Assembly (NCBI RefSeq): GCF_903645315.1
Contig: NZ_CAHJXL010000001.1
Coordinates: 1,292,001 to 1,356,000 of the forward strand
Direction of reading: 5' to 3'
Source of the DNA: Victivallis sp. Marseille-Q1083
GTDB lineage: Bacteria; Verrucomicrobiota; Lentisphaeria; Victivallales; Victivallaceae
DNA: 64,000 nt
Shown piece after piece: positions 3,293 to 60,921 of the stretch. The notes beneath the pieces are model-generated. The model ran no database searches and was not told where the DNA came from. It saw only the letters and a list, made by a program, of their open reading frames with translations. The first letter of the stretch is position 1. Every line of letters starts with the position of its first letter. A program made the translations under genes and the position numbers.

Positions 3293-3673
3293 CTACGGAT
3301 TCGCCGGAACGGTCTCCGGCGCCGCCTCGGGAGTGACTTCCGGAACTTCCGCCGCCGGGGTTTCGACCGCCGGCACCGCCTTGCCGTCCATTTTTTCCAG
3401 CGCCTGATTCACCGTCGCCGATTGATACTGGCTGTCGCCCCGACTGACCAGCACCGCCAACAACAAAGTCAGCCCGAAAAAGATCGTCGTCATCACCACC
3501 GTCATCTTGGTCAGATGACTGCCGGCCTGCGCGCCGAACACCGACTCGCCCAGTCCGCCGCCGAACGCCGCCCCCAGCCCGCCCTGCTTGGACGGCTGCA
3601 CCAGCACCAACGCAATCAAAAGCAGCGAGACGATCACCACTGCCGCATAAAGCATTACCGTTAACACCACCAT
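3293..3673 (-). CDS. secG: Preprotein translocase subunit SecG
   Basis: About 126 residues from the ATG at 3673, which has GGAGG about 11 bases upstream. Two membrane helices flank the SecG signature: the first at about residues 3-25 ending in LVQPSKQGGLG, then a Gly-rich loop (AAFGGGLGESVFG), then the second at about 50-75. The C-terminal tail is acidic and rich in Pro/Ala/Val, as in other long SecG proteins. SecG associates with SecYE and assists protein export. It follows tpiA on the same strand, a common arrangement in bacteria. An upstream in-frame ATG at 3706 would add residues that do not resemble the family. Confidence 0.88.
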   Translation of the reverse strand: MVVLTVMLYAAVVIVSLLLIALVLVQPSKQGGLGAAFGGGLGESVFGAQAGSHLTKMTVVMTTIFFGLTLLLAVLVSRGDSQYQSATVNQALEKMDGKAVPAVETPAAEVPEVTPEAAPETVPANP

Positions 3674-39922: not shown

Positions 39923-41176
39923 ATGCCGCAATTTGCATATACCGCAATGGATCAGTACGGCAAGGAGCAGAAGGGAACGCTGGAAGCCTCTTCTGAAGAC
40001 GTCGCTGCCTCGACACTGAAGAAGCAGGGATTGTATCCGACTTCGTTGAAAGCCCTGACCGCCAAGGGACAGCCGGTCAAGCGGCGCCGCAAGGCCCAGC
40101 AGGGAAGCATTTTCAACTTTGCGCTGGGCGCGCGCAAAATCAAGCGCAAGGAATTGACGCTCGTCACCCGCCAGTTGGCAACGCTGCTGGAGGCCGGTCT
40201 GCCGTTGATCCGTTCGTTGCGGACGCTGGAAAAACAGAGCAAAAACGCGATGACCAAGCTCATCCTCGGCGACACCGCCGATGCGGTTGAAGAGGGTGCG
40301 ACGTTCTCGGAAGCGCTGGCTTACAATCCGAAAAGTTTCGACAAGCTGTATTTGAACATGGTACGGGCCGGCGAGGCGGCCGGGGCGATGGAAACCATTT
40401 TGTCACGCTTGGCGCAATTCATGGAAAAGGCGGCAAAGATCGCCGGCAAAGTGAAATCGGCGATGATCTACCCGATCTCGGTGCTGGTCATCGCCGGGTT
40501 GATTACCACCGGGTTGATGATCTGGATTGTGCCGAGTTTCAAAAGCATTTTTGACGACCTGCTGCCGGGTGGGCAAATGCCCGCCTTGACTTTGTGGGTC
40601 ATCGACGCCAGCAACGTGCTGGTGCATGAAGGCTGGAAAGTCTTGCTGGCTATTGTTGCCATTATTATTTTGTACTGTATTACCAATCGTACCAAATACG
40701 GTAAATTCGGCATCGACTGGGTCAAATACCACATGCCGCTGTTCGGGCCGATCATTTCCCGGTCGGCAATCGCCCGTTTCTCCCGAACCCTGGGCACCCT
40801 GATGGCCGCCGGCGTGCCGGTGCTGAACGCCTTGAACATCGTCCGCGATACCTCCGGCAACGATCTGGTCGCCTCGGCCGTGCAGAAAGTGCACGATGCG
40901 GTCAAGGAAGGCGAAGGCATCGCGGCGCCGTTGAACGCCACCGGCATTTTCCCGCAGATGGTGATCAGCATGATCGAGGTCGGCGAGGAAACCGGCCGCT
41001 TGCCGGACATGCTCGAGCGCATTGCCGACAAGTATGAAGACGAAGTGGACAATGCGGTCAACGCCCTCACTTCGATGATCGAACCGTTGATGATCGTCGT
41101 CCTGGCCGTGATCGTCGGTACGATCGTCATCGCCATGTTCTTGCCGTTGACGAAACTGATCGAAGGTATGGGTTGA
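39923..41176 (+). CDS. pilC: Type IV pilus/type II secretion inner-membrane platform protein PilC/GspF
   Basis: 417 residues with GGAGG upstream. It starts with FAYTAMDQYGKEQKGTLEA and carries two repeated GspF domains (about 70-195 and 275-400). Three membrane helices lie near 170-192, 218-240 and 380-405. The conserved motifs ARKIKRKELTLVTRQLATLLEAGLPL and ARFSRTLGTLMAAGVPVL begin the two domains. It binds the PilB/PilT motors and transmits force to the subunits. No pilin gene, prepilin peptidase or secretin lies in this operon. Confidence 0.95.
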   Translation: MPQFAYTAMDQYGKEQKGTLEASSEDVAASTLKKQGLYPTSLKALTAKGQPVKRRRKAQQGSIFNFALGARKIKRKELTLVTRQLATLLEAGLPLIRSLRTLEKQSKNAMTKLILGDTADAVEEGATFSEALAYNPKSFDKLYLNMVRAGEAAGAMETILSRLAQFMEKAAKIAGKVKSAMIYPISVLVIAGLITTGLMIWIVPSFKSIFDDLLPGGQMPALTLWVIDASNVLVHEGWKVLLAIVAIIILYCITNRTKYGKFGIDWVKYHMPLFGPIISRSAIARFSRTLGTLMAAGVPVLNALNIVRDTSGNDLVASAVQKVHDAVKEGEGIAAPLNATGIFPQMVISMIEVGEETGRLPDMLERIADKYEDEVDNAVNALTSMIEPLMIVVLAVIVGTIVIAMFLPLTKLIEGMG

Positions 41177-47270: not shown

Positions 47271-47310
47271 TTGACTTTCCCAGCAATGCTGCTATTATTC
47301 TACGTAGAAT
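47271..47310 (+). promoter_or_regulatory. Promoter with TACGTA palindrome, copy 1 (orphan)
   Basis: TTGACT (47271-47276), a 16-base spacer and TATTAT (47293-47298), overlapped by the perfect palindrome ATTCTACGTAGAAT (47297-47310). No gene follows; a terminator lies 29 bases further on. It is the first of four promoters with the same operator. Confidence 0.7.
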
Positions 47311-47338
47311 TTCCCAAATTCCTTCTCTCCCTTTCCCC

Positions 47339-47374
47339 GGCTTTCGGCTGACGACAGTCGAAAGCCTCCTTTTT
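47339..47374 (+). terminator. Rho-independent terminator close behind the orphan promoter
   Basis: Stem GGCTTTCGGCTG (47339-47350) with CAGTCGAAAGCC (47355-47366), one G-T wobble, loop ACGA, then TCCTTTTT. A transcript from the promoter at 47271 would be about 70 bases long. It might also end read-through from the gene at 46769. Confidence 0.8.
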
Positions 47375-47585
47375 CAGCCGGTAATTGGAAAATTATTTTG
47401 CATGTTTCACTCTATATTTAAGATAATTGCAACCAGGTCTGAATTGATTGGGAAATCATTTCCGCCAACGGTATCCCGCCGTGCCGGCGCCGGAAAAACC
47501 TCCGGCCATGACCCAGCCGGTCTCCTTCCGCAATCCACTATTTTCAAGTTCGTCGACAAAAATCTGTTTTTTTTCAATCCGGGGA

Positions 47586-47630
47586 TTGACTTTTGCCATT
47601 TTTTTTGCTAAACTAATTCTACGTAGAATT
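47586..47630 (+). promoter_or_regulatory. Promoter with TACGTA palindrome, copy 2
   Basis: TTGACT (47586-47591), a 17-base spacer, TAAACT (47609-47614) and directly after it the perfect 16-base palindrome AATTCTACGTAGAATT (47615-47630). It drives the pseudopilin gene at 47726 with a leader of about 105 bases. Repressor binding there would block transcription initiation. Confidence 0.8.
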
Positions 47631-47725
47631 AAATGACCGGCATGCTTCCGTCATTGCGCAGGCGGAGGGTTGTCAAGTCATCGGAATGGATCACCAATCA
47701 AAATCAAACGACAAGGAAGTAAAGG

Positions 47726-48502
47726 ATGAAAAAAAGTTTCACGCTGATTGAACTGCTGGTCGTGATTGCAATCATCGCCATTTTGGCTTCGATGCTGCTG
47801 CCGGCGCTCGGCAAAGCCAAAGCCGCTGCAATGAACGTCAAATGCAAGAGCAACTTAAAGCAGCTCGGCCTGGGATTGGCCATGTACGCCGGCGATTTCG
47901 ACGACAGCCTGCCGCCGTCCGCCTTTCAGGAAAAAGACAATAATTTGCGTTTCTGGTTCAATGAACTTTGCCGTTATATGGGCGGGAAATTTTATGGCGA
48001 TGCCGACGGCACCGGCTGGGTCAACATCTGGGATGAAGGCGACGCGCCGCAAATGCTGATCTGCCCGGCCGAAGGCAGCCTGAAAGTCGGCACTACCACC
48101 AATACCGTCTGCTACTCCTGGATCGGACTGGACTTCGGCACTTCGGACAGCGGTTGGACCGCGGCCCCGACTTACGGATACGGCACCAAGCTTTCCAACG
48201 TTTCCAACCCCTCTTCGGCGACAATCATCACCGATGCCAGAGATCACTCGCTCGCAACGGCGGAAACGGATTTATACACATTGTTCAACAACTACAGCAA
48301 CTGGTATCCGACCATCGACGGCCGGGTTGCCCTGCGGCACAGCCGCGGCAACAGCGTCAATTCGATCAAATTCAACGGCTGCCGGGTCGACGGCAGCGTC
48401 CACGATGTCAGCGGCACTCAGATGCTGATCAACACCTGGAATCCGGACAGCGGCGTCGACAACTGCTGGCGGGCCCGCAATACCGACGGCTCCTTCCGGT
48501 AG
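47726..48502 (+). CDS. Prepilin-type (pseudopilin) protein, operator-controlled copy 1
   Basis: 258 residues with AAGGAAG upstream. The type III signal [18 protein letters not shown] is followed by [20 protein letters not shown]. The C-terminal domain ends with [19 protein letters not shown] and [15 protein letters not shown], a variant of the H-X9-DG region. It is closely similar to the gene product at 49774 along the whole length (both end [12 protein letters not shown]), so the two arose by recent duplication. Expected location is the inner membrane, with processing by a prepilin peptidase. Confidence 0.92.
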
Positions 48503-48508
48503 AATCAT

Positions 48509-48557
48509 CCGCGCGTGTCCACAGCCATTGCCTTGCCGGAACCGTGGGCACGCGCGG
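48509..48557 (+). terminator. Terminator-like hairpin after pseudopilin copy 1
   Basis: CCGCGCGTGTCCAC (48509-48522) pairs with GTGGGCACGCGCGG (48544-48557) with a single G-T wobble, followed by only TTT. The stem starts 6 bases after the stop codon. Confidence 0.6.
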
Positions 48558-48754
48558 TTTGCATGAATTTCCGATGCATCAAATTTCATTCTAAAGAATC
48601 ATGACCGCAATCCAGAGACAACAAACGCAGAAAATTGAATTAACTCGATTATTTTAAAGATCTTAACAGCATTTTGTTCTTTTTCGCTTTAGAGAAATTC
48701 TCATTAAATTCAATTATTTTTATCATTTTTTTTCAATTTTTTTACGTTAGGGTA

Positions 48755-48798
48755 TTGACTTTTGCTCTTTTTTTTGCTAAAATAGTTCTACGTAGAAC
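48755..48798 (+). promoter_or_regulatory. Promoter with TACGTA palindrome, copy 3
   Basis: TTGACT (48755-48760), a 17-base spacer, TAAAAT (48778-48783) and then GTTCTACGTAGAAC (48785-48798), a perfect 14-base palindrome. It drives the pseudopilin gene at 48890. Spacing between -10 box and operator is the same as in copy 2. Confidence 0.8.
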
Positions 48799-48889
48799 AA
48801 CAAAGTGCATCATCTCGCTCGCGACGATGTGATGTCGGATGACAAGTGTTCCAAATTTGAAAAACATCTCAAAACAAAGGAAAGAAACG

Positions 48890-49573
48890 ATGAAAAAGCA
48901 TTTTACATTGATCGAACTGTTAGTCGTGATTGCGATTATCGCCATTCTTGCCAGCATGCTGCTGCCGGCGCTCGGCAAAGCCAAAGCCGCCGCCCAGGCA
49001 ATCAAATGCACTTCCAACCTCAAGCAGATCGGCGTGGTTTGTTTTTTGTATGCGGAAGATAACCAGGACTACGGGCCGGTCGTCGATTACGGCTGGAATC
49101 ATGCGAGCCATTTTCTCGGCGACTACATGAATTTGCAGCCGAATCAGGATTGCCTCATCTGGGGCCAGGGAAGAGGATACTTTTCCAACACGATTTTCAG
49201 TTGTCCCGGCTACACGGAAGACGGCGGCGTCACCGGAACGGACAGTTATGCTTATGCGCCCAATGTCTACATCGGCGGCCACATCGACACCAACTACTTC
49301 GACGGCGGCACCCCCGTCAACACCTGGGGCGCCGATTTTGAGGCGAAAAAGTTGAGCCAGATTACCAGAGCCTCGGAACGTTATTACTGGGGAGACAACA
49401 AAGCTCTTTCCAAATATGCTTACTATTGGACGCTGCAGCCGGGGGATGAGTGCATCGGTTATCATCACAACAATCGGGCCAATGTCCTTTTCGCCGACGG
49501 TCATGTCAACAAAGGCGAAGGAAAGATCAACTGGATCAACCATCAGGAAATGTTTTACCCGGTCAACGATTGA
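48890..49573 (+). CDS. Prepilin-type (pseudopilin) protein, operator-controlled copy 2
   Basis: 227 residues with AAAGGAAAG upstream. The signal [18 protein letters not shown] and [22 protein letters not shown] match the group. The body differs strongly from its two neighbours, and it carries a canonical H-X9-DG element ([16 protein letters not shown]). It therefore represents a separate pseudopilin subtype under the same operator. Confidence 0.92.
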
Positions 49574-49673
49574 CGGAGAAAAATGCAGAATGGCAATCGC
49601 CGACGGTCAACCGTTCTCAAACCTCCAATTGCGGTATGAAAGTCATCTTTTTGAAAAATTTTGGATTGGGTAC

Positions 49674-49714
49674 TTGATTTTCTTTTAAAAATTTGCTATA
49701 ATTCTACGTAGAAT
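49674..49714 (+). promoter_or_regulatory. Promoter with TACGTA palindrome, copy 4
   Basis: TTGATT (49674-49679), a 17-base spacer, consensus TATAAT (49697-49702) and the overlapping palindrome ATTCTACGTAGAAT (49701-49714). It precedes the pseudopilin at 49774 and probably the glycosidase genes behind it. Confidence 0.8.
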
Positions 49715-49773: not shown

Positions 49774-50568
49774 ATGATGAAGAAAAGTTTCACACTGATC
49801 GAACTGTTGGTCGTGATCGCGATCATCGCCATTCTCGCCAGTATGCTGCTGCCGGCGCTCGGCAAGGCCAAAGCGGCAGCGATGAACGTCAAATGCAAAA
49901 GCAATTTGAAACAGCTCGGCCTCGGGCTGGCGATGTACACCGGTGACAACGATGACAGTCTGCCGCCGGCGGTGTTGTGGGATCTGCCGAGCGGCGACAT
50001 GAAGTTCTGGTTTTCCGACCTTTGCCGTTATATGGGCGGCAAATTCTACAACGATACCGCCGCCCAGGAAGGCTGGATCAACATCTGGGACGCCAACGAA
50101 GCGCCGCCGGTGCTGGTCTGCCCGGCCGAAGGCAGCCTGACGATCAACGTCGGCGGCCGTACGTTCGACAATGTGGTCTGTTACGGCTGGGTATCGCTCG
50201 ACTTCGGCGGCAACGGCTGGATGGCCGACAAAGTTTACGGCTATCAGACCAAAGTGTCCAGCGTCTCCAATCCGTCGGGCGCGACGATCATCGCCGATTC
50301 GCCGAACCACGCCGACATCACCTATGAAACCGATTTGTACAGCCTGTTCAACAATTATAACAACTGGTACCCCACCGCCGATGCCGGCCGGGTGCCGATG
50401 CGGCACAGCCGCGGCAGCAGCGTCGGTGCGATCAAGTTCAACGGCTGCCGGGTCGACGGCAGCGTCCACGACGTCTCCGGGACCCAGATGCTGATCAACA
50501 CCTGGAATCCGGACGGCGGCGCCGACAACTGCTGGAGAGCCCGCAATACCGACGGCTCGTTCAGGTAA
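49774..50568 (+). CDS. Prepilin-type (pseudopilin) protein, operator-controlled copy 3
   Basis: 264 residues, AAGGAG 7 bases before the ATG. The signal [18 protein letters not shown] and the rest of the protein parallel the gene at 47726, including [19 protein letters not shown] and [17 protein letters not shown]. It leads the run of GH123-like and GH2 genes, repeating the arrangement at 17235 where a pseudopilin leads secreted enzymes. Confidence 0.92.
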
Positions 50569-50586
50569 ACCGAGAAATCAGTCACG

Positions 50587-50613
50587 CCGTTTCCGCAATG
50601 CCGGCGGAAACGG
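50587..50613 (+). terminator. Hairpins between pseudopilin and GH123-like gene
   Basis: CCGTTTCCGC (50587-50596) pairs with GCGGAAACGG (50604-50613) around 7 bases. A second stem, CCTTTTCCGC with GCGGAAAAGG (50632-50641 and 50658-50667), follows close to the next ribosome binding site. There is no T-run, so partial termination or protection of the pseudopilin mRNA is more likely than full termination. Confidence 0.5.
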
Positions 50614-50682
50614 TTCGACGCAAAAAATGTCCCTTTTCCGCGGCCCGGCAACCGGCAGCGGAAAAGGCGGAGAAAAAAATCA

Positions 50683-56909
<6,227 letters not shown>

Positions 56910-58149: not shown

Positions 58150-58187
58150 TTTTTATCGATGATGATTTCCCTTTCTTTTTCCCGTGG

Positions 58188-58214
58188 CCGCGTCAGTTCC
58201 TGACGCGGTCTTTT
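58188..58214 (+). terminator. Rho-independent terminator after the LacI gene
   Basis: CCGCGTCAG (58188-58196) and CTGACGCGG (58200-58208) form a 9-bp stem with a TTC loop, followed by TCTTTT. Confidence 0.85.
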
Positions 58215-58281: not shown

Positions 58282-60921
58282 ATGATGCGAAACTGCACCG
58301 GGTTGTTATTCTCCCTGACCTTGCTGTCGGCCGCCGCGGCCCAGGCCGCCGATGCCGGCCGGCCGGCGCCAACCATCGATTTGCTGGCATCCACCTGTCA
58401 ATGGCAGCCGATGTCGAACGACCAGTTGACGATGACTTCCGAACGCGGCGAAACGCTGAAAATCACCACGCAAACCAACGGCGGCGACGAGAGTTTTCCG
58501 TTGATGCGCCTGAATTTCGATCAACCGCAGGATTGGCGGCGGTTTCACACCCTGACGCTGCAGGCATCCCTGGCCGGCGACCGGCCCGGCATGTTTGCCA
58601 GCGGCAAGCGAATCGCCGTCTGCCTGTATTCCGAAACCCTGCTGAACCAGGACGGCAAACCGGCGCAACAGATAATCGCCCAACCGCGCATCCGTGACAA
58701 CGGCCAGCAGCAGGAGTTCGACCTCGATTTCGGCACGGCACCGCGCGGCGCCGTGACCGCCATCGAAGTGATTTTCCATGAGCAGCCCTACTATACGATG
58801 GAACACCAGTTCACCCTCGACTTCTCCAAACTGCTGCTGACCGGCTATCCGGACGACCAGCAAGTGATGGACGGCGTCGGCTTCGAACCTTCCGGCGCTC
58901 CGGCGGAAGCCGGACCGGTCGCCGGCAGCATCCGGACCGGCAACGGCCTGAAACTGGAATTTACCCAATCCGGCCTGATCAATGCGGTGAGCGTCAAAGA
59001 CCAGCCGGTCTACCGGGGCAACAACGCCATGTCCGGCATATTGCTGCGCAAGCCGGCCAACCGGCTGCCGCCGCAACCGGCCGGCGGCACGCTGAGCATC
59101 GAAGGCAACCGGGCGGTTCAGACGATGCGCAATCCGGCCGAAAATCTGGCGATGCAAGTGGTTTATGAAGCGAAAGAGGATCACATTGCCGTCGACGGCT
59201 GGGTGGCCGGCATCGACAATGACAAGCCGCTGCCGGTGACGGTTTACTGTGCGCTGCCGTTGCAGCCGGAGCAGACCTGGGATTTCGGCACCTCGCTGAA
59301 CAATGTGGTAAAAATCGATGAAAACTACCGGATTGAAGAGAGCGTCGTACAATTTCCGCTGGCCACCGTCGGCGATGCCGATGCCAGTATCACGATGGCA
59401 ATCCGGCTGGATGAACCGACCGCCTATCACCTGGTCATCAATCCCGACCTGGATTTGTTCTATACCGCGTTCGATTTTTCTTTGATCAATCAACCAAACG
59501 TCCGCGGCGGCTCGATGAACAAAGCGGACTTCTCACTGGTGATTTATCCGAATGATCCGGACTGGGGGTTCCGTTCCGCCTGTGACACCTATTATCGCCT
59601 GTTTCCGCAATTTTTCGTCGACCGGATCGGTCATGGCGGCGGTTGGGGAGTGCCCTGGCTGGATATGAAGGCCCAGGAAAAGGGCGACGCCGGGCTACGG
59701 TTCAATTGGGACAGCGGCAGCAGCCGCGACAAGCTGGCGACCTTCCGCCGGAACAATACGATGAATTTCATTTACATCGAGCCGGAATTTTTCCAATACA
59801 GTCTCGGAGACAGCGAAACGCCGAACGACGACGATGCGGAAAGACGGCTTCATAAGCTGGCCAGCGGCGATCCCGATGAGTGGAAGGCCTATGAGAAGCT
59901 GCACTACGCGGCGTTTGTCTCCGGTCAGCCGTATTCGCCGCTGACCGGCATGACCACCAGGGAATTTCTGCAGGCGGTGATGGCGGCGGTGGAAGTTTCC
60001 GCCCAGCACAACCGGGACGGCCAGGTGCCGTACGATATCCTGAACCGGGTCAGCTGGATCGGCGACAGCGGCATGGGAGCGATGATCCCCTGCAACCTCA
60101 ATCCGCTGATTCCCGGCGGCAAGGGAATGTTCGGGCACCAACAGAACCTGGCGCCGTTGGTGGAAGAGCTGGAACAAGAGGCCGGTTTTCCGATCGACGG
60201 CTTCGGGCTGGATTGTTTCGGCATGGCGCCGGCCGATTACCGGTTTGAAAACTTCAAATACGCGTCGATGCCGATCAGTTATGACCGCCAGACTCTGCAG
60301 CCGATGCTGCCGGCGCCGTTCGGTTCGGTCGAGTGGCTCAAATACATGGCCGAAACCTTTCATCCGCAAAAGAAATATTTCATCGCCAATATCTTCGGAC
60401 CGCTGACCTTCCTGGCCCCCTACCTGGACATCTTCGGCGCCGAAAAGGTGATGGTCACCGAACCGGAACTCTACCGGATGCTGGCCGGTCCCCGGACAGT
60501 CTCTTTCCTGCCGTGGGGCAAACAACCGCCGTTCACTTACGAATACCATCTGTTCTGGGATATGTATCCGGGCTCGATCGTCGATGAGGCGGTGTTGAAA
60601 AAATTCGTGCCCTATCTGGACCTGCTCTATGCCGCCCAATGGCAACCGCTGACGCTGGCCAGAACGGACAACGGCATTCCGGTGGAACGTTATGGCAATC
60701 CGGACGACGAAGTGATGTATTTCACGCTGCTCAACCGGGAAAAAACGGCCCGGCCGACCATACTTCAACTGGACGGCAAACTGGCGTTGCCGGCCGGCAC
60801 TCGATTCGAATTGATCTATCCGACCACGGCAAAACTGGAACAGGAGAACCGCCGGCTCACACTGGATATTCCAGCCGAATCAGCCGCAATCGTCAAAATC
60901 AGCCGGGCAAGTCAACCGTAG
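58282..60921 (+). CDS. Large secreted protein, probable glycosidase of unknown family
   Basis: 879 residues with AAGGA 8 bases before the ATG. A signal peptide (LLFSLTLLSAAAAQAA) is followed by a beta-rich region with a jelly-roll-like first domain (about 30-195) and a galactose-mutarotase-like second (about 215-430). A probable TIM barrel (about 440-800) contains GVPWLDMKA, FIYIEPEFF and GFGLDCFGMAPADY. A small all-beta end (PAGTRFELIYPTTAKL) resembles the C-terminal domain of alpha-glycosidases. Candidate acidic residues are in IEPEF and LDCFG. No named family is certain. It stands downstream of the LacI gene with its own leader. Confidence 0.7.
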   Translation: MMRNCTGLLFSLTLLSAAAAQAADAGRPAPTIDLLASTCQWQPMSNDQLTMTSERGETLKITTQTNGGDESFPLMRLNFDQPQDWRRFHTLTLQASLAGDRPGMFASGKRIAVCLYSETLLNQDGKPAQQIIAQPRIRDNGQQQEFDLDFGTAPRGAVTAIEVIFHEQPYYTMEHQFTLDFSKLLLTGYPDDQQVMDGVGFEPSGAPAEAGPVAGSIRTGNGLKLEFTQSGLINAVSVKDQPVYRGNNAMSGILLRKPANRLPPQPAGGTLSIEGNRAVQTMRNPAENLAMQVVYEAKEDHIAVDGWVAGIDNDKPLPVTVYCALPLQPEQTWDFGTSLNNVVKIDENYRIEESVVQFPLATVGDADASITMAIRLDEPTAYHLVINPDLDLFYTAFDFSLINQPNVRGGSMNKADFSLVIYPNDPDWGFRSACDTYYRLFPQFFVDRIGHGGGWGVPWLDMKAQEKGDAGLRFNWDSGSSRDKLATFRRNNTMNFIYIEPEFFQYSLGDSETPNDDDAERRLHKLASGDPDEWKAYEKLHYAAFVSGQPYSPLTGMTTREFLQAVMAAVEVSAQHNRDGQVPYDILNRVSWIGDSGMGAMIPCNLNPLIPGGKGMFGHQQNLAPLVEELEQEAGFPIDGFGLDCFGMAPADYRFENFKYASMPISYDRQTLQPMLPAPFGSVEWLKYMAETFHPQKKYFIANIFGPLTFLAPYLDIFGAEKVMVTEPELYRMLAGPRTVSFLPWGKQPPFTYEYHLFWDMYPGSIVDEAVLKKFVPYLDLLYAAQWQPLTLARTDNGIPVERYGNPDDEVMYFTLLNREKTARPTILQLDGKLALPAGTRFELIYPTTAKLEQENRRLTLDIPAESAAIVKISRASQP

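Follow-up and report, generated by a model that had tools for sequence, protein, structure and literature searches.

A candidate LacI-type operator shared by pseudopilin promoters in Victivallis sp. Marseille-Q1083

Comparison with described LacI regulons

In the part of Ravcheev et al. 2014 (PMC4052901) on which we draw, 1251 of 1303 palindromes are even and 1173 carry a central CG, more than 75% of LacI sites lie 140 to 30 bp ahead of the start codon, and 72% of the LacI regulators studied are autoregulated. The locus described here lies in a 64,000-nucleotide stretch of the Victivallis sp. Marseille-Q1083 genome (the window). It resembles the local LacI regulons of sugar use in that part of the work in its even palindrome with central CG, which the sequence-only reading had taken as the hallmark of LacI operators and which fits the norm, in a site placed 140 to 30 bp before the start codon, in few targets beside the regulator gene, in presumed autoregulation and in glycosidases among the targets. 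It is unlike them in that pseudopilins are the main targets, that two paralogues appear to act on one operator and that one site stands ahead of a predicted short terminated transcript. A LacI local regulon of known kind with unusual main targets is well supported.

The E. coli LacI and its lac operator O1/SymL, as covered in the portion of Camas et al. (PMC2978694) used here, provide a second comparison. AA and NT numbering follows that paper, and its mapping onto the window regulator P0001 is our own. The predicted operator likewise lies over the transcription start, with a beta-galactosidase gene as target, whereas NT-6/5/4 read T/T/C instead of G/T/G and the recognition residues are Q/R/S instead of Y/Q/R. 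Unlike in E. coli, the lacI-type gene stands inside the presumed regulated operon, which a pseudopilin opens. The TVSR subgroup, described in the same portion by T-V-S-R at AA-17 to AA-20 and guanine at NT-6, does not take in P0001, which has I-V-S-S and T at these places.

Table 1. Features of the predicted regulon; window coordinates except for the fifth operator (C1, contig of the same genome).
Feature	Position	Strand	Description
Promoter 1	47271..47310	+	TTGACT-N16-TATTAT with operator 47297-47310; no protein gene directly downstream
Predicted operator 1	47297-47310	+	ATTCTACGTAGAAT, perfect palindrome
Terminator-like hairpin	47339..47373	+	12-bp stem 47339-47366, then T run
Promoter 2	47586..47631	+	TTGACT-N17-TAAACT with operator 47616-47629
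Predicted operator 2	47616-47629	+	ATTCTACGTAGAAT; widened, an 18-bp palindrome 47614-47631
Pseudopilin 1	47726..48502	+	258 aa; prepilin N-terminus, DUF1559-like
Promoter 3	48755..48798	+	TTGACT-N17-TAAAAT with operator 48785-48798
Predicted operator 3	48785-48798	+	GTTCTACGTAGAAC, perfect palindrome
Pseudopilin 2	48890..49573	+	227 aa; nearest relative the fifth-site pilin, 55%
Promoter 4	49674..49714	+	TTGATT-N17-TATAAT with operator 49701-49714
Predicted operator 4	49701-49714	+	ATTCTACGTAGAAT, perfect palindrome
Pseudopilin 3	49774..50568	+	start 49774 or 49777; first gene of presumed glycosidase operon
Paired hairpins	50569..50685	+	two, strong, without T run, between pseudopilin 3 and GH123; z -4.2
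GH123-family glycosidase	50683..53076	+	PF13320, 88.5 bits
GH2 beta-galactosidase with F5/8-type C domain	53073..56909	+	start overlaps GH123 end
LacI-family regulator P0001	57016..58149	+	recognition helix VSQRIVSSV
Terminator-like hairpin behind LacI gene	58186..58214	+	from sequence and folding, z -5.7; outside the terminator scan list
Predicted fifth operator	C1:353938		TTCTACGTAGAA exact; TTGACT-N17-TATACT promoter, centre 10 bp behind -10 centre

The palindrome, its promoters and its genes

The sequence-only reading had placed four palindromes in the window, and all four were located there as perfect palindromes, three as ATTCTACGTAGAAT and the one at 48785-48798 as GTTCTACGTAGAAC. The 4.82-Mb genome has exactly five copies of their common core, TTCTACGTAGAA, the four window sites and one about 1 Mb away, whereas the reversed control has no exact copy. 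A second-order Markov model trained on 0.83 Mb of the genome predicts 0.016 copies per genome and 8e-6 in 2418 bp, which, with the empty control, rules out a chance palindrome. The core is the sole perfect 12-bp palindrome present in at least two of 149 pilin upstream regions, which hold 22 distinct palindromes. With up to two mismatches allowed, the genome has 57 matches versus 67 for the reversed control, so that the site is defined by its exact copies and loose copies are meaningless; both one-mismatch copies lie inside open frames. The palindromes are 12 to 18 bp long, flanked by GTTC..GAAC at sites 3 and 5 and by ATTC..GAAT at the others, and their centres lie 103, 98, 69 and 42 bp ahead of four pilin starts.

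Each window palindrome had been described as lying on or just after the -10 box of a TTGACT/TTGATT-N16/17 promoter, and such boxes are found at all four sites, every -10 being preceded by TG (extended -10). The distance from -10 centre to palindrome centre is 8, 11, 11 and 8 bp at sites 1 to 4, which brings the palindrome centres to within 2 bp of the estimated transcription start. That description came with a proposed genome-wide scan and would have been refuted by copies at random places; the scan puts 5 of 5 exact copies at promoters. Three window sites precede pseudopilin genes as claimed (starts 47726, 48890, and 49774 or 49777). The encoded pilins reach 30 to 32 bits versus the 88.85 of the NCBIfam equivalog for GspG, the major pseudopilin of type II secretion, and do not qualify for it; they match the general prepilin N-terminal domain TIGR02532 (22 versus 16.3). 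A type II secretion F-type gene (PF00482) is present in the same window at 39923-41176. Elsewhere, a pilin gene at G000:C1:3522236 (L118) carries ATTCAACGTTGAAT, a near relative of the operator, 60 bp upstream, with no LacI match within 1.5 kb.

Site 4 is followed by pseudopilin 3, GH123, GH2, LacI and then a strong terminator-like hairpin; the terminator scan has only weak plus-strand terminator-like sites between pseudopilin 3 and LacI, all of them within genes. LacI, 7.3 kb from the nearest site, is probably the last gene of the site 4 operon, and a single transcript would have to extend that far. The paired hairpins may lower or stabilise read-through, and the first gene may therefore outrun the rest in expression. 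Pseudopilins and following glycosidases had been expected to be switched together; glycosidases, GH123 and GH2, follow pseudopilin 3 alone and neither of pseudopilins 1 and 2. Next to the glycosidase operon, an 879-aa protein (58282-60921), whose N-terminus is signal-like, matches nothing in Pfam or NCBIfam and is possibly an undescribed glycosidase.

Two LacI paralogues and relatives in other genomes

At the fifth site, the operator is followed after 42 bp by a pseudopilin start and then by a gene for a 348-aa LacI-family protein (G000:C1:354656), with an AraC-type gene directly upstream of the site. Among the 35 LacI homologues found in the genome this LacI-family protein is the closest to P0001 (51% identity, E 2e-107), the next best having 30% (E 4e-38). 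The two share 61% of the DNA-binding part (38/62), 76% of the helix-turn-helix (13/17) and 49% of the effector part, and have in common the helix VSQR(I/V)VSSV. At the recognition positions AA-15, AA-16 and AA-20 both carry Q, R and S, a set that no other protein has among the 27 own-genome helices read of the 35 homologues. The hinge Ala/Leu that partners the central CG (AA-51, AA-54 in the portion of PMC2978694 used for the mapping) is A58 and L61 in P0001 and is conserved in its paralogue. P0001 scores 21.3 bits with the Pfam LacI helix-turn-helix, under the cut-off of 27, and its paralogue 27.8, over it. The P0001 profile matches full-length CcpA, PurR and LacI chains, and its sugar-binding (periplasmic-binding-protein-like) effector domain reaches 89.4 bits with PF13377 (cut-off 26.5); solved chains of LacI type are matched as well, with E values of 5e-20 at best. 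Two paralogous LacI, one per site cluster, thus appear to use one predicted operator.

We searched 387 genomes of the phylum for the core and found it in 8, our own included, while the reversed control matched in more of them (about 39 by eye, of 387 searched). The core was absent from 59 of 59 other genomes of the family, some of which are incomplete. In a genome of another family (G324), two exact copies 1.6 kb apart flank a LacI gene, one directly ahead of it and one ahead of a secreted-protein gene; a coding-strand TTGACA box precedes each copy, with an unclear -10 box. The encoded LacI has 24% identity to P0001 overall and 41% in the DNA-binding domain, yet carries Q/R/S. In genome G284, likewise from a different family of the phylum, a LacI with Q/R/Y has the one-mismatch copy ATCTACGTAGAA ahead of its gene, right behind TTGACT-N17-TATTGT. 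These two cases are like our regulon in their same or nearly the same operator, in their Q/R/S or Q/R/Y residues, in the site at the regulator's own promoter and in presumed secreted-protein targets; unlike it, their LacI belong to a separate clade and the stretches read around them hold no pilin motif.

Single copies in four further genomes (G085, G147, G206, G382) lie inside open frames and were rejected as promoter sites; a LacI-like stretch lies 1.3 kb from the G206 copy and a pilin motif 1.4 kb from the G085 copy. The G311 copy was likewise rejected as part of a terminator-like hairpin. Eight copies in G360 were set aside too: at the four loci read, three have one repeat-like flank, the fourth differs, and none has a LacI. 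The flank common to those three (L143, L150, L151) is TTTCATGGAAG, and the unit looks like a dispersed repeat.

LacI genes that would break the pairing of residues and operator were sought in a helix survey, to which two DNA-binding-domain searches of the 387 genomes contributed the best 30 loci at most per search; in total it took in 84 helix rows from 82 loci, some genes being read twice. A caveat is that the G324 LacI was located through its operator. Q/R/S occurs in 3 genes among these rows of best loci, and all three are tied to exact sites; the one closest to P0001 lies 7.3 kb ahead of it, before the first gene of its presumed operon. Q/R/Y occurs once among the best loci read, in G284. 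Two Q/R/A LacI (G258, G320) and one Q/R/G LacI are without such a site at the best loci read; the Q/R/A pair carries TATTACGTAGCA, three mismatches off, ahead of a membrane gene-pilin-LacI run. The remaining helix rows of the best loci yielded one match within two mismatches (L030), inside a gene. In a maximum-likelihood tree of 73 rows, our pair and the G324/G284 pair fall in different well-supported clades, and well-supported branches force at least 3 changes of the Q/R label. Q/R/S thus occurs in separate clades, each with TTCTACGTAGAA, so that one residue set and one operator pair in two LacI clades. This suggests a residue-operator pairing of Q/R/S with T/T/C, outside the LacI subgroup of the published code.

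Several other LacI loci of the survey have palindromes of their own. A LacI gene of our genome (L022, C1:1852057) and one of G193 (L162), both with L/G at AA-15/16, share the upstream palindrome ATAAAGCGCTTTAT, which occurs twice in L022. Two R/W/R genes (L197 in G421, L206 in G285) have the common upstream core AACACGTGTT, and three further R/W/R genes read are without such a palindrome of at least 12 bp. The Q/R/A loci L215 and L216 (G258, G320) conserve GGTATTACGTAGCATCA at about 3294-3345 on the LacI strand, ahead of the membrane gene-pilin-LacI run.

For P0001 itself, 77 other genomes of the family yielded nothing at E 1e-50, and a search of one genome from each of 84,980 species with two 8-residue patterns only gave three remote matches. 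Its two nearest relatives in 196 other genomes of the class have 37-38% identity, differing helix residues and no such palindrome; these two outside relatives stand directly ahead of pilin genes. The paralogue pair, its common recognition residues and the G324 case, from a different family, give good support to LacI as the protein of the predicted operator. The small regulon under the LacI of 57016 put forward in the sequence-only reading keeps its LacI link; in place of one repressor, two paralogues with the same recognition residues come into question.

Proposed regulon and its meaning

TTCTACGTAGAA very probably serves a local LacI-type regulon as its operator, at five promoters. We infer that, without inducer, a P0001 dimer, and probably its paralogue too, would cover the -10 box and the transcription start and so block RNA polymerase at the five promoters. 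Judged from GH123 and GH2, the inducer would most likely be a sugar released from glycans that contain Gal or GalNAc. Release of LacI would turn on the three window pseudopilins, the GH123-GH2-LacI genes behind the third, the fifth-site pseudopilin-LacI pair and the promoter 1 transcript. Each LacI gene seems, from the gene order at both loci, to lie in an operon under its own operator, which would give negative feedback; the window LacI, appearing to close the site 4 operon, probably represses itself.

A reading of the five sites as recently copied versions of a single pilin promoter, without common regulation, is scarcely credible. Pseudopilins 1 and 3 are indeed adjacent and 73% identical, and promoter boxes and T-rich spacers are alike, but 12 of 12 core bases agree while the flanks differ, and the core recurs beside a LacI gene in another family (G324). 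Moreover, the pilin at C1:2074458, 90% identical to pseudopilin 3, has a different upstream region without the operator, whereas pseudopilin 2 and the fifth-site pilin, only 55% identical, both have it, which rules out that the site was inherited with the pilin gene; judged from these sequences, the site tracks LacI, not the pilin. A palindrome by itself names no protein, and another regulator, for instance of GntR type, might bind it with the LacI genes as mere neighbours. The AraR operator is also TACGTA-centred and an AraC-type gene adjoins the fifth site, but LacI is the only regulator type found at both clusters, a Pfam scan of the neighbouring window proteins gave no other DNA-binding regulator, and in G324 and G284 a LacI with matching residues again stands at the site; we consider such a regulator very improbable. 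With LacI as the regulator, each paralogue might still serve its own cluster only, or just one might bind, with no cross-talk. Each is encoded with its own cluster, the effector domains are only 49% identical, and the two site groups differ in their flanks, GTTC..GAAC versus ATTC..GAAT; against this, recognition residues and 12-bp core are identical in both, which makes strict insulation hard, and we hold this division of labour to be unlikely, though a serious candidate.

The nature of site 1 is more evenly balanced. Promoter 1 is followed after about 30 nt by the stem and T run, giving a predicted transcript end at about 70 nt, and the 72-nt stretch there folds with z -4.5. Site 1 may give rise to a regulatory RNA or a leader, or may act as a decoy. 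We give close to an even chance to site 1 being an auxiliary or decoy operator rather than the promoter of a working RNA. Auxiliary lac operators act over a range of distances that takes in 319 bp, the spacing of sites 1 and 2; no Rfam family reaches the gathering score, the two matches being at chance level, on the opposite strand and far below it; and pairing of the RNA with pilin start regions is unspecific, the four regulon pilins ranking 22, 88, 119 and 149 of 149, with the fifth-site pilin last. On the other side, site 1 has a full promoter with extended -10 and then a strong terminator in tandem. When the start regions of seven window genes were compared for pairing, that of the 879-aa gene was the one exception (11 and 2 of 300 shuffles gave values as low). 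The region behind promoter 1 has no second copy in the genome except the operator itself. We rejected the idea that remains of a fourth pilin lie behind site 1: 150 pilins compared with 47311-47720 gave 33 tblastn matches, the best of which, with E 0.023, spans 12 residues of the opposite strand. As an observation on pilin promoters at large, 57 N17 promoter matches upstream of pilin genes of this genome (loci L039-L133) have an ATG 6, 7 or 8 nt behind the -10 in 13, 6 and 3 cases; it coincides with the predicted transcription start, far ahead of the pilin start, and may represent either leaderless short ORFs or a common start-site motif.

A pilin search of the genome gave at least 150 scored places and 187 candidates, and 149 ORFs with a prepilin motif were found in the 95 stretches read. 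Among the matches listed, 29 of 35 LacI homologues lie within 3 kb of a pilin match, whereas 1000 random placements averaged 7.8 and never exceeded 17 (contig 2 was set at 0.8 Mb for an actual 0.94 Mb, a small error). Together with the outside relatives that precede pilins, this indicates that pairing of sugar repressor and pseudopilin is common here. As a general rule for pilins next to a LacI gene, a CG-centred palindrome is weak: one of at least 12 bp occurs at 5 of 26 such pilins (fifth-site pilin included; 0.67 in shuffles) versus 10 of 123 without adjacent LacI (three window pilins included; 2.43 in shuffles). In a literature search that covered few subscription journals, no paper on the regulation of the pseudopilins of this lineage came up, and the operator string returned one unrelated mouse paper.

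A bolder reading, which we regard as rather improbable, is that the pseudopilins of this lineage serve as substrate-specific tools, with every glycan system bringing in pseudopilins of its own under a sugar repressor of its own. If so, the secretion pseudopilus would be refitted for whichever glycan is present. The two LacI paralogues, acting here through a single operator, could form an AND gate for two sugars, and a co-induced site 1 RNA of about 70 nt could be a post-transcriptional arm. Such a reading would explain about 150 pseudopilins in one genome. For pseudopilin genes, the present analysis offers a concrete predicted operator together with its likely regulator and a list of targets, by which this puzzle becomes testable: given how many LacI genes lie near pilins, reading the other private operators should show the match between glycan and pseudopilin.
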